From Victivallaceae bacterium (GTDB taxonomy: Bacteria; Verrucomicrobiota; Lentisphaeria; Victivallales; Victivallaceae), in assembly GCA_024405735.1 (NCBI GenBank), contig JAKSOF010000003.1, positions 62,001 to 126,000 of the forward strand: 64,000 bases of DNA, in the 5' to 3' direction. The position numbers and the translations under genes are program-made. A model generated the notes under the pieces. The model was not told the DNA's origin. It did not search any database and saw nothing but the letters and a program-made list of their open reading frames with translations. Positions 24,834 through 34,999 of the stretch are shown one piece after another (the first letter of the stretch is position 1; every line of letters begins with the position of its first letter).

Positions 24834-24872
24834 TTGCTTTTTATGCTATATTAAGTTATATTGTATAGCATA
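24834..24872 (+). promoter_or_regulatory. Promoter and inverted-repeat operator of the AbiE-type locus
   Basis: TTGCTT (24834-24839) and TATATT (24857-24862) are 17 bp apart. A perfect 9-bp inverted repeat, TATGCTATA (24842-24850) and TATAGCATA (24864-24872), covers the spacer and the -10 box. AbiEi antitoxins bind inverted repeats in their own promoter, so autorepression is likely. Confidence 0.65.
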
Positions 24873-24896
24873 AACCCCAACAACGACAAAACAAAA

Positions 24897-25487
24897 ATGC
24901 AAACGCAAAAACTCATTGATCTCGCAACCGCCAACGCCGGTTGCGTGTCCGCCACACAGGCAAAAGATGCCGGAATTGCTTCCGGCATAATTCATTATGC
25001 GCTCAAAACAGGAAAAATCAAACGCATTGCCCGCGGTCTCTATGCGCTTCCGGACACCTGTGGCGATGACTTTTTTGCCGCGCAAAATCAATTTAAACGC
25101 GGAATTTTCTGCGGTATCTGTGCTTTGTATTTATGGCAATTGACTGATCGCACACCCTTGACAATGGAAATGACTTTTCCTGCAGGCTATAATGTCGGGG
25201 CGGCGATACAAAGCGGAATTAAAACGCATTCGGCGATACCGCCCTTGTATCAGGCGGGAATAAGTCAATGCACGACTCCGGGCGGCTTGCCGGTAAGGGT
25301 TTATTCCCCGGAGCGGACATTGTGTGATCTGTTGCGGATCCAAATGCATTATGACCAGGAGATCGTTTCTTCCGCATTCAAAATGTATGCGGTGCGTCCG
25401 GGCAAAGATTTATCCGCGCTGGCAAAATTCGGCAAACTTTTGTCGGTGGAAGCCAAGCTCAGAAACTATATGGAAGTGTTGCTGTGA
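24897..25487 (+). CDS. Type IV antitoxin, AbiEi-like
   Basis: The protein has 196 residues. The N-terminus is a winged helix (ATAKDAG-like ATQAKDAGIASGIIHYALKTG, IKRIARGLYALP) as in the AbiEi_4 family. The rest (YLWQLTDRTPLTMEMTFP, VYSPERTLCDLL) fits the antitoxin domain. It should repress its own promoter and oppose the toxin encoded next. No good ribosome site precedes the ATG at 24897, and the short leader is rich in A and C. The last 4 bp overlap the toxin gene. Confidence 0.8.
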   Translation: MQTQKLIDLATANAGCVSATQAKDAGIASGIIHYALKTGKIKRIARGLYALPDTCGDDFFAAQNQFKRGIFCGICALYLWQLTDRTPLTMEMTFPAGYNVGAAIQSGIKTHSAIPPLYQAGISQCTTPGGLPVRVYSPERTLCDLLRIQMHYDQEIVSSAFKMYAVRPGKDLSALAKFGKLLSVEAKLRNYMEVLL

Positions 25488-26320
25488 TGACTCCGGAACA
25501 ACTCAAAGGCAGAATAAAAAATATCGCGCTCAAAAGTAAAGTATCACCGCAACAACTTTTGCAGAATTATTGTCTTGAGCGGCTGATGAAACGGCTCACA
25601 TGCTCTCCTTGGAAAGAAAACCTCATCATCAAAGGCGGTTTTCTGGTATCGCACCTGACCGGACTTGCCAGTCGCACCACGATGGATATTGACGCGACCG
25701 TAAGATCCATGGAGTTGACGCAAGCGAATGCGGAAAAAATTTTTGCCGATGTCGTCCGAATGCCGGATGACGACGGAATGAACTTTGTCGTGGAAGATAT
25801 TTCCAGAATACGGGAAAACGACACTTATGAATGTTTCCGCGTCAAACTGCTGGCGATTTTTTCTCCGCTTCGCATTCCGTTGAAAGTCGACTTGACCGTC
25901 GGGGATCCGATTTTCCCGGAGGAAACCGGACTGCGCATCGTTCCGATGCTTGACGATGATGAATTCACGGTTCAAGTGTATCCACTGGAAACTCTTCTGG
26001 CGGAAAAGTTGGAAACGGTACTGCGCCTGGGCGAATTCAATACCCGCGCCAAAGATTTTTATGATTTATTTATTCTCTGCAAATTATTTATGGATAAAAT
26101 CCGACCGGAAAATTTACGGCAGGCGTTTCATTTGACCTTGCGGCACCGACAACAGTTACCGTTGCTGAAATCGTGGGAAGCCATTCTGCAAGAGACCGCC
26201 TCAAGCCCGGCAATACAAACGCATTGGAAAAATTATCAACGCACGTTTGCTTATGCCGCCGATATTGAATTCTCCAGCGTCGTTGATGCCATCAGGCAAC
26301 TTTTGACCATCGCGGGCTGA
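25484..26320 (+). CDS. Type IV toxin, AbiEii-like nucleotidyltransferase
   Basis: The protein has 278 residues. Nucleotidyltransferase motifs are intact: IKGGFLVSHL, then RTTMDIDAT with the D-x-D pair, VKVDLTVGDP-like segment (PLKVDLTVGDP), and the AEKLETVLR helix. AbiEii/MenT toxins transfer nucleotides, in some cases to tRNA acceptor ends, and can abort phage infection. Start-stop overlap with the antitoxin gene shows coupling. This is a second defence-type system outside the island. Confidence 0.8.
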   Translation: MMTPEQLKGRIKNIALKSKVSPQQLLQNYCLERLMKRLTCSPWKENLIIKGGFLVSHLTGLASRTTMDIDATVRSMELTQANAEKIFADVVRMPDDDGMNFVVEDISRIRENDTYECFRVKLLAIFSPLRIPLKVDLTVGDPIFPEETGLRIVPMLDDDEFTVQVYPLETLLAEKLETVLRLGEFNTRAKDFYDLFILCKLFMDKIRPENLRQAFHLTLRHRQQLPLLKSWEAILQETASSPAIQTHWKNYQRTFAYAADIEFSSVVDAIRQLLTIAG

Positions 26321-31797: not shown

Positions 31798-32439
31798 TTA
31801 TGAAAACAAAACTTCCTCTACGGCAAGGCAAAGCGCGTGATAGACCGGCAGATGATATTCCTGGATCTTATAGGTTTCACTTTCCGGTACCGCGATGACA
31901 AGATCGGCGAATTTTTCGCAGATGCCGTGACGGTTTCCGGTAAGAAGAATGGATTTTACCCCTTTTACGCGCGCCGCCATCAAGGCTCTCAAAATATTTT
32001 TGGCGCCGCCGCCCGTCGAAATCGCAAAGAAGAGATCACCCGGTCTTGAAAGAGCCCAAAGCTGCTGGGCAAAGCAAAGTTCGGGGTCGACGTCGTTGGC
32101 AAATGCGCTTAAAAGTCCCGGATGCGACAAAAGGGAGACCGCGCGCAACCCTGATTGCAGTTTTTTCGCCGTATCGGCGCCTTCTTCACCGAAAAGCGAA
32201 ACAAAATTCTCCTGAACGCACTCCGGCAACGGCCGTTTGGATTTGAAACCTTTCATCAATTCGCCGCAGATATGATCGCAGTCGGCGGCGCTGCCGCCGT
32301 TGCCGGCAAGGTAGAGAATACCGTCGCGCTCGTAAAGACGAAGTAATTCATCCAGCACCTGATATAACGTTTCACGCAGGCAATCCAAATCGGGATAACG
32401 CTCAAAAAGCTTTTCTATTTGAGAATTTTTTGTTTGCAT
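31798..32439 (-). CDS. SIS-domain sugar isomerase, GmhA-like
   Basis: The protein has 213 residues. The SIS fold is clear from AGNGGSAADCDHICGELMKGF near residue 45 and ISTGGGAKNILRAL. This matches D-sedoheptulose-7-phosphate isomerase, the first step of ADP-heptose synthesis for lipopolysaccharide. Other SIS isomerases cannot be excluded. It is the first gene of the operon ending with the membrane-anchored orphan. The C-terminus YHLPVYHALCLAVEEVLF fits GmhA-type proteins. Confidence 0.75.
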   Translation of the reverse strand: MQTKNSQIEKLFERYPDLDCLRETLYQVLDELLRLYERDGILYLAGNGGSAADCDHICGELMKGFKSKRPLPECVQENFVSLFGEEGADTAKKLQSGLRAVSLLSHPGLLSAFANDVDPELCFAQQLWALSRPGDLFFAISTGGGAKNILRALMAARVKGVKSILLTGNRHGICEKFADLVIAVPESETYKIQEYHLPVYHALCLAVEEVLFS

Positions 32440-32450
32440 TTTGCACCTTT

Positions 32451-32474
32451 TTAAGATATTTTATCTTAAGATAA
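32451..32474 (-). promoter_or_regulatory. Palindrome upstream of the SIS gene
   Basis: A perfect 14-bp palindrome, TTATCTTAAGATAA, lies at 32461-32474. It overlaps a second dyad, TTAAGATA / TATCTTAA, at 32451-32469. It stands 12-35 bp before the start codon of the SIS gene and could be a repressor site. Confidence 0.45.
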
Positions 32475-32842
32475 CCGGAAAGAAGTCCTTTTTCAAGGAG
32501 CAAACGCAAAAAGTCGGCGCTTTTCCTTAAAAATGTTTGATGACAACGATGTTGAAAGGCTGTTGATAAGTTGTAAAGAGATTGTGAAAAATTTTTTGAT
32601 AAACACGCCGAAAACATGACTTCAACAAGTTATCAACAACCGAAATATCGTATAAACCCTTTATTTTGAGCAGATAAAAAATTTTGATTAACAGAACTTG
32701 CTTTTTCCAATTATTATTATATATTAAAGGATTTAGATAAGAAGTAGTATAAGAGTAGAACGCTTCCCGGATTTTCAGTCGGAATTTTTCCTCTGCCGGG
32801 AAAAAATCAGGATCAAAATCTTTTAAGATAGGAGAAAATAAG
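32475..32842. other. Candidate chromosomal replication origin
   Basis: This gap of about 370 bp separates divergent operons and precedes dnaN. Two identical 9-mers, TTATCAACA, one mismatch from the DnaA box TTATCCACA, lie in inverted orientation at 32561-32569 and 32630-32638. A TTTGATAAA-like partial copy is at about 32595. An AT-rich stretch (32640-32770) follows. Gene direction switches here. dnaA is not in the window. No coding frame is convincing. Confidence 0.5.
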
Positions 32843-33937
32843 ATGAAATTCAAAGTCGATCGTGAAAAACTGCACCGCGCGCTCAGCCGCGTCGGAAACA
32901 TGACCAACAACCGCGCGATCTTGCCGTTGCTCAACAATGTTCTGCTGGAATGCGAGGACGGGAAACTGAAACTGACGACCACCGATCTTGAGTTGCGTAT
33001 GAGCACAGCGATCGAGGCGAATGTAGAGGAAGCGGGCAAGACGACGGCGCCCGCCAAGAAACTCAATTCGCTGATCTCCTGTATGTCGGGCGCCGAAGTG
33101 GAATTTTCCGTCGACGAATCCGATCACGTCAAAATCCATTGCGGTACCGGTAAGTTTACGCTGCTCGGATTGCCGGCAAAAGATTTTCCGGAAGGCGCCG
33201 GCAGTGAGACGGATCATATCGTGACGGTCAAGGAAAACGCGATGAAAAAAATGATTTCGGCGATCAATTATGCCGTGAGCGCCGATGATTCCCGTAAAGT
33301 TCTGACGGGCGTGCTGATGAGTCTCAAAGAGACCAATATGACGCTTGTTGCGACGGACGGCAAGCGGATGGCATTGCAGGAAGGTGCGCCGACCAGCATC
33401 GAGGGCGGCGACTTGGATGCGATCATCCCGTTGCGCGCGATCAACGAATTGCGCCGCGTCGCCGAAAGCGATCAGGATATGAAAATTTTCATCGGCGACA
33501 AACAATGCGTCTTTCAGGGGAACGACTTTGAATTGTCGACCAAATTGATTGAAGGCAACTATCCCAACTACCGTCAGGTGGTGCCCGCTTCGTTTGCCAA
33601 GGAGATCGAAGTTCCGACCGGTTTGCTCAAGAGCCGCATTCAGACGATGTCGCTCCTTTTGCCTGATACCAACAGTTTCATCATCCTCGGATTCAACGAA
33701 AACAAACTGCAGATCTCCGCTTCGAGCGCCGAAGTCGGTGAAGGCAGCGACAGCATCGACATCAATTACACCGATACGCCGTTTGAAATTTCCTTCAACC
33801 CGCAGTTTCTGATCGAACCATTGCTGACGACGGATGTTGAAAGCGTCCGCATCAAAGTCAACGATCCGATCAATCCGGTGGCGATGGAAGCCGGAGAAGG
33901 CTTCCTCTACGTCATTATGCCGATCCGCAAAAAATAA
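32843..33937 (+). CDS. dnaN: DNA polymerase III beta subunit (sliding clamp)
   Basis: The protein has 364 residues, the usual length. It starts MKFKVDREKLHRALSRVGNM, has the typical inter-domain segments (TLVATDGKRMALQE, LIEGNYPNYRQVVP) and ends with the VIMPIRKK clamp C-terminus. It keeps the replicative polymerase on DNA. AGGAGA precedes the ATG. recF follows after 9 bp. The adjacency to recF, downstream of a candidate origin, is the common bacterial order without dnaA. Confidence 0.95.
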   Translation: MKFKVDREKLHRALSRVGNMTNNRAILPLLNNVLLECEDGKLKLTTTDLELRMSTAIEANVEEAGKTTAPAKKLNSLISCMSGAEVEFSVDESDHVKIHCGTGKFTLLGLPAKDFPEGAGSETDHIVTVKENAMKKMISAINYAVSADDSRKVLTGVLMSLKETNMTLVATDGKRMALQEGAPTSIEGGDLDAIIPLRAINELRRVAESDQDMKIFIGDKQCVFQGNDFELSTKLIEGNYPNYRQVVPASFAKEIEVPTGLLKSRIQTMSLLLPDTNSFIILGFNENKLQISASSAEVGEGSDSIDINYTDTPFEISFNPQFLIEPLLTTDVESVRIKVNDPINPVAMEAGEGFLYVIMPIRKK

Positions 33938-33946
33938 AAATTTTTG

Positions 33947-34999
33947 ATGTTGCAGGAAATTAAAATCGTTAATTTTCGCAACTTCGGCGCGGTAAAACTG
34001 GATTTTTCGGGACGCGACGCTATTCTTTCCGGTCGCAACGGATCGGGTAAAAGCAATTTACTGGAAGCGGTGCATCATTTGTCGATTCTGCGCAGTTTCC
34101 GCGGCGCGCGAAGCCGCGAAATGGTGAAGATCGGCGAAACGGAATTTTTTCTCGGCGGAAATCTGAAAGTCGGAAATCTGACGGAGTTTCTTTCGGTACG
34201 CGAAAGATCCGATGGTCGCCGGGAACTTTTTCTCGGCGAAACGAGACTGCGCCGCTCCAGTGAATTCATCGGTGAATTTCAAGCCGTGCCCTTTGTACCG
34301 GAAGACCGGATGATCGTTTCCGGAAATTCCGGATTCCGGAGAAAATTTTTCGATATTCTTCTTTCTGCGCTCGATGAAAATTACTTTGTCGCGCTGGTCA
34401 ACTATATGCGTGCTCTCGATCAGCGCAACCGCGCTTTGCGGGAAAATCATTTGAATATAGCGGCGGCGTTTGAAGAAGAATTATCGCGTTGCGGTGTCAA
34501 AATCGGCGTTTTCCGCGAAAACTGCGCGCAAAAAATCGCCGATGAGATGAATCGCTTACTGGGAAAAAAATACCGCTTTGATTTACGCTATCTCAGGGCG
34601 TTTCCCGGAAGCGAGGAGGAATACCGCGACAAACTTAAAAGTCAGCGTCAGCGCGAGTTGCTGAAAAAATGCACGCTGACCGGTCCGCAGCTCGACGAAT
34701 TTGAAATGCGGCTTGACGGCAAACTTCTGCGCGGTTTTTCTTCGACCGGACAGCAACGGCTGACATCGCTGATGTTGCGTTTGGCGCATTTCAATCTTGT
34801 GCGTAAAAACGCTTCGGCTCCCGTCGTCGCTCTGATCGACGACGTGACGGGGGAACTGGATGACGAAAATCTCGACCGCTTTTTGGAAAACATCGCAGTG
34901 GCGGATCAGAGGATCTTTACGTTTACCGGGATTCCGGACAGGGAATTTTTCCGCCGCTGTCAGATCATTCCGGTGGAGAAACTGGAGCAGATAAATTGA
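33947..34999 (+). CDS. recF: DNA replication and repair protein RecF
   Basis: The protein has 350 residues. ABC/SMC-like ATPase motifs: LQEIKIVNFRNF start, Walker A SGRNGSGKSNLLEA, signature SSTGQQRLTSLML and Walker B VALIDDVTGELD. It loads RecA at gaps. The ATG at 33947 is used; a TTG one codon upstream is less likely. The stop overlaps the next gene as TTGA. Confidence 0.9.
   Translation: MLQEIKIVNFRNFGAVKLDFSGRDAILSGRNGSGKSNLLEAVHHLSILRSFRGARSREMVKIGETEFFLGGNLKVGNLTEFLSVRERSDGRRELFLGETRLRRSSEFIGEFQAVPFVPEDRMIVSGNSGFRRKFFDILLSALDENYFVALVNYMRALDQRNRALRENHLNIAAAFEEELSRCGVKIGVFRENCAQKIADEMNRLLGKKYRFDLRYLRAFPGSEEEYRDKLKSQRQRELLKKCTLTGPQLDEFEMRLDGKLLRGFSSTGQQRLTSLMLRLAHFNLVRKNASAPVVALIDDVTGELDDENLDRFLENIAVADQRIFTFTGIPDREFFRRCQIIPVEKLEQIN

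Follow-up and report, generated by a model that had tools for sequence, protein, structure and literature searches.

The gap between dnaN and a divergent gene for a SIS-domain protein is very probably the chromosomal origin of replication (oriC) of a Lentisphaeria-like bacterium, and would be the origin that this genome uses. It lies in a window of 64,000 nt, the whole stretch of DNA that we analysed, which comprises bases 62001-126000 of contig C20 in a draft genome of 1.89 Mb and 26 contigs. The original prediction was of an origin without dnaA beside it. This is supported as the best reading by a cluster of boxes in the gap with a two-group distribution in the genome, by conservation of the site, and by the coincidence of the GC skew minimum with it in relatives. 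It would be a DnaA-dependent origin of the usual type, in which the box, TTATYAACA, and the neighbouring SIS gene are specific to the lineage. Neither the SIS neighbour nor the like boxes before dnaA had been part of the prediction.

Gene order and base composition around the gap

From 32843 the genes run rightward in the order dnaN-recF-rmuC and the SIS gene runs leftward, so that both sides are transcribed away from the gap (Table 1). The dnaN-recF pair named in the prediction is identified by NCBIfam matches, and the strand switch named there is the divergence of this pair from the SIS gene. The AT-rich stretch is also confirmed: the GC content of the gap is 0.32 compared to about 0.5 in the flanking genes. 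The dnaN product is 91% identical, across the whole protein, to that of Lentisphaeria bacterium UBA1791.

Table 1. Features of the candidate origin and its neighbours (window coordinates)
Feature	Position	Strand	Remarks
SIS-domain, GmhA-like gene	31798..32439	-	Pfam SIS; conserved neighbour by coordinates
Candidate oriC	32440..32842	.	403-bp gap between SIS gene and dnaN, taken whole
TTATCAACA box, left arm	32561..32569	-	Exact match
Weaker box TTATCAAAA	32594..32602	-	One mismatch
TTATCAACA box, right arm	32630..32638	+	Exact match; 69 bp from left arm
TGATTAACA, possible box of unwinding element	32685..32693	+	One mismatch to TTATYAACA
TTATTATTA, possible DnaA-trios (3'-AAT-5' on other strand)	32711..32719	+	Where AT-rich stretch begins
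dnaN	32843..33937	+	TIGR00663 above its cut-off
recF	33944..34999	+	TIGR00611 above its cut-off

Two further features were observed in the window. Immediately upstream of the SIS gene is a palindrome, TTATCTTAAGATAA (32461-32474), perhaps a regulator site of that gene; by eye, similar palindromic stretches occupy the equivalent place in genomes G026, G008 and G006. Approximately 6 kb from the candidate origin, at 24861-26320 (+), there is an AbiEi-like antitoxin and AbiEii-like nucleotidyltransferase pair (Pfam PF13338 and PF08843), a type IV toxin-antitoxin system.

Predicted DnaA boxes in the gap and upstream of dnaA

The inverted 9-mers of the prediction are two exact copies of TTATCAACA in opposite orientation, accompanied by weaker copies. 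With up to one mismatch allowed, TTATYAACA has 4 matches in the gap; 100 dinucleotide shuffles gave 0.64 on average and never as many as 4. Across the entire window, TTATCAACA with up to one mismatch has 14 matches (shuffle mean 7.75; 4 of 100 shuffles equally high). Since this window-wide count only mildly exceeds chance, the signal is the cluster rather than the total. In G026 both main boxes, the left TTATCAACA box included, keep their distances from the SIS start. An inverted pair with this 69-bp spacing is also found in G026, G027 and G012, partly with TTATTAACA in place of TTATCAACA.

The sole dnaA that we found in the draft genome is on contig C23 (102562-103953), outside the window, as expected from the claim that dnaA is not beside the site. 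Three exact copies of TTATTAACA lie upstream of it (C23, 102177-102426). The draft genome contains 16 copies of TTATYAACA, which form just two groups, one in the SIS-dnaN gap and the other in this upstream region. Because these are its only groups, the distribution suggests that TTATYAACA is the box of this genome's DnaA, which would then bind the boxes in the gap.

Helix types are known for 30 dnaA loci, out of 57 genomes with a dnaA match. At least two exact TTATYAACA boxes are found near the dnaA start in 11 of the 12 genomes with an NHAT recognition helix; the remaining one has none. The boxes before dnaA probably reflect self-control of dnaA. When domain IV of the DnaA was aligned with E. 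coli 1j1v, N and A replaced D433 and T435 (E. coli numbering as given in an excerpt of PMC7561715), and the N would favour an A at box position 6.

Conservation of the SIS-dnaN gap

We compared 60 genomes, including our own, of which 6 had no dnaN match and 3 (G007, G022 and G055) had only weak or partial matches, leaving 51. Within these 51, contig ends truncate the region upstream of dnaN in G013 and in G050. By coordinates, SIS and dnaN diverge over a short gap in 22 of the 51 (own genome included). Box enrichment, defined as at most 5 of 100 shuffles scoring as high, was seen in 20 of these 22 gaps versus 6 of the 29 other dnaN upstream regions. The two gaps without enrichment are those of G008, a near relative in which SIS adjoins dnaN (28/100 shuffles as high), and G059 (29/100). 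In G050, dnaN (C221:277) and the SIS gene (C373:61) are each at a contig start, which would fit a break of the assembly within the origin gap.

GC skew of the relatives and of the genome itself

The skew minimum, by which the prediction was to be judged, falls on the homologous gap in some relatives and elsewhere in others; all minima refer to the stretches fetched and not to entire chromosomes. In G036, from the same order and a single contig of 3.66 Mb, the cumulative skew over 180 kb reaches its minimum at 3131034, which is 96 bp before dnaN; on a 1-kb grid, the gene-corrected analysis places the best switch at 3131131. Eleven samples were taken elsewhere on this contig; the five at 1.7 to 2.9 Mb were negative and five of the remaining six positive, the signs expected for an origin near 3.13 Mb. 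G094 (same class; 80 kb) has its minimum 296 bp ahead of dnaN, with no SIS gene seen within 1.5 kb of dnaN. The raw minimum of G057 (same order; 120 kb) is close by, 1.7 kb past the start of dnaN; after gene correction, the best switches lie no more than about 1 kb from it. G038 counts against the site: its minimum over 80 kb lies 40 kb away from dnaN.

G065, from the same family, separates the two neighbours of the gap. Its minimum (1676233; 120 kb) lies 95 bp upstream of where the SIS gene starts, and dnaN is 36 kb away. Beside the SIS gene, at 1676258-1676480, is a cluster of six boxes that includes two exact TTATTAACA, and we found no boxes in the 600 bp preceding dnaN. With both the minimum and the boxes at the SIS gene and dnaN 36 kb away, the origin follows the SIS side rather than dnaN. 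We therefore rejected dnaN as a fixed marker of the origin. By eye, the genes downstream of SIS in G065 resemble uppS, cdsA, the gene of an AsnC regulator and that of an aminotransferase, and all but the uppS-like gene are common to this flank and to the window.

The genome's own profile is too weak to single out the site. The cumulative minimum on C20 (148.7 kb) is at the contig end. When positions were ranked by their minus-to-plus change, the site came 7th among 218 for arms of 20 kb, 12th among 178 for arms of 30 kb and 65th among 138 for arms of 40 kb. The third-codon skew effect at the site, corrected for gene strand, is -0.008 for the whole fetched part of C20, and narrower ranges give +0.028 to +0.037 (+0.031 below 124 kb); the site is never the best gene-corrected switch on C20. 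Near the contig end, a stretch at approximately 132000-142000 (GC 0.41 to 0.42) has negative skew that disturbs the profile, and is perhaps acquired DNA.

Possible unwinding element

In the window, TGATTAACA and TTATTATTA form a box-spacer-trio module whose spacer measures 17 nt if the trio frame is applied strictly (TTA trios), or 16 nt if any NAN triplet is counted. As far as an excerpt of PMC8287927 describes it, the basal unwinding system has a box with up to two mismatches, a spacer of up to 16 nt, and three or more trios; the 17-nt spacer is thus 1 nt beyond that limit. Using a spacer limit of 17 nt, chosen after the window module had been seen, we found modules of a box, a spacer and three trios in 15 of the 22 SIS-dnaN gaps, with 2.9 expected under this post hoc limit. 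The same scan of the 22 gaps gave no module in G036, G057 and five others. The best module has a 13-nt spacer in G041, G043, G048, G049 and G058, the commonest spacer in the excerpted part of PMC8287927. The window module also overlaps a promoter-like match, TTAACA-18-TATTAT at 32688-32717, of which TGATTAACA doubles as the -35 element; there are three such matches in the region (shuffle mean 1.5). The case for an unwinding element in the window is marginal.

Sister genomes with a different DnaA helix

The recognition helix reads THAN instead of NHAT in 15 of 26 DnaA proteins from the same genus (30 examined overall). None of the 13 THAN-type genomes with a dnaN match is box-enriched at dnaN; amongst NHAT genomes with a usable dnaN upstream region, 6 of 11 are. 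A minus-to-plus switch is missing from three places in G014, namely dnaN, dnaA (4 kb from dnaN) and the SIS gene, and G009 and G020 have none at dnaN in 20-kb stretches. Scans with TTATYMACA gave at least 110 matches in G014 and at least 126 in G020. Among the matches listed, neither a pair 333 bp apart in G014 nor a TTATCAACA pair 20 bp apart in G020 (C3:4760) has a clear minus-to-plus switch. The skew minimum of G017 is 25 kb from the SIS gene with no evident box cluster. Scans of G014 and G020, and the skew of G014, G009, G020 and G017, did not locate the origin of the THAN-type genomes. At least two TTATYAACA near the dnaA start are retained in 4 of the 15 THAN genomes, so the link between helix and box is not clean.

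A tentative reading, about which we are more doubtful than confident, is that the origin has been replaced within one GTDB genus: NHAT genomes would tend to keep a TTATYAACA origin at SIS/dnaN, THAN genomes would have lost the boxes at both places and start at a new site, and the SIS protein might act on DnaA as E. coli DiaA does.

Identity of the SIS protein

The identification of the SIS protein as DiaA itself is not supported. Against the NCBIfam DiaA model (NF008138) it scores 57.6 bits, below the cut-off of 352. Its best NCBIfam match is gmhA (TIGR00441), with 107.6 bits, also below the cut-off (209.45). A GmhA-like QE-H-YH stretch, which in GmhA we take to have a role in catalysis, is kept in all 47 SIS proteins listed (by eye). 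The genome also has an HldE-like domain (159.6 bits, under the cut-off of 181.5), which makes a heptose pathway plausible in this bacterium.

Mechanism and alternative explanations

In the origin that we propose, DnaA made from its distant gene would bind the two opposed arms of TTATYAACA-type boxes and the weaker copies between them. The AT-rich flank towards dnaN would then be opened and helicases loaded, from which two forks would start.

The boxes might instead be an operator through which DnaA controls dnaN, the SIS gene or both, and no origin at all. The promoter-like match in the gap fits such a role, as do the same-type boxes upstream of dnaA, which occur on C23 without a skew switch and hence show that such boxes can lie away from an origin. 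An operator would not account for the skew minimum on the homologous region in G036 and G094 and, at a distance from dnaN, in G065, and we consider this explanation improbable; operator and origin roles can in any case hold together. The boxes upstream of dnaA also raise the question of an origin on C23. They are the second of the two genomic groups, with three TTATTAACA in this genome and counterparts in nearly all NHAT-type genomes, and the best gene-corrected switch on C23, a weak one 14 kb from dnaA, is of similar strength to the effect at the SIS-dnaN gap. In G036 the skew is mixed to the left of dnaA and mostly positive to the right, a weak change there too. However, the 5-kb skew values on C23 (77001 to the contig end) are positive on both sides of dnaA, for which reason we thought this origin unlikely, and the strong sign change in G036 is at dnaN, 0.59 Mb from dnaA if the contig is circular. 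Overall we give an origin at dnaA hardly any credence.

The gap could also be the origin in relatives whilst this genome starts elsewhere, as its sister genomes seemingly do. The weak skew of C20 would agree with this, as would the lack of box enrichment at dnaN in the THAN-type genomes and the missing switches of G014. Against this, the boxes in the genome's own gap are intact and placed as in G026, and its DnaA is of the NHAT type; we consider this reading very improbable. An origin in the SIS-dnaN gap, used by this genome, remains our preferred reading.

Relation to known origins and significance

The oriC of E. coli is distant from dnaA and has opposed arms of strong and weak boxes with an AT-rich side, all of which it shares with the gap described here. 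It differs in its neighbour genes, in its box, TTATnCACA (from an excerpt of PMC5742627) compared to TTATYAACA, and in the D433 and T435 of its DnaA, for which N and A are found here. A parallel in gene order comes from the cyanobacteria Synechococcus elongatus PCC 7942 and Cyanothece ATCC 51142, where, in the excerpted text of PMC7198777 and PMC4674748, oriC is beside dnaN and dnaA is encoded separately, as at this gap. The same excerpts already give TTATCAACA as one of the boxes predicted for the linear chromosome of Cyanothece; the usual cyanobacterial box there is TTTTCCACA, which the TTATYAACA/TTATCAACA boxes here do not match. The other neighbour here is the SIS gene. Our searches of openly licensed papers turned up no description of an origin of this lineage.

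Use of the SIS-dnaN gap, rather than dnaA, as the start marker would help to place origins in draft genomes of this lineage, and the same marker would be useful for reading growth rates from coverage. Together with the altered box and DnaA helix, the apparent loss of the origin from sister genomes would offer a natural case of initiator-origin co-change.
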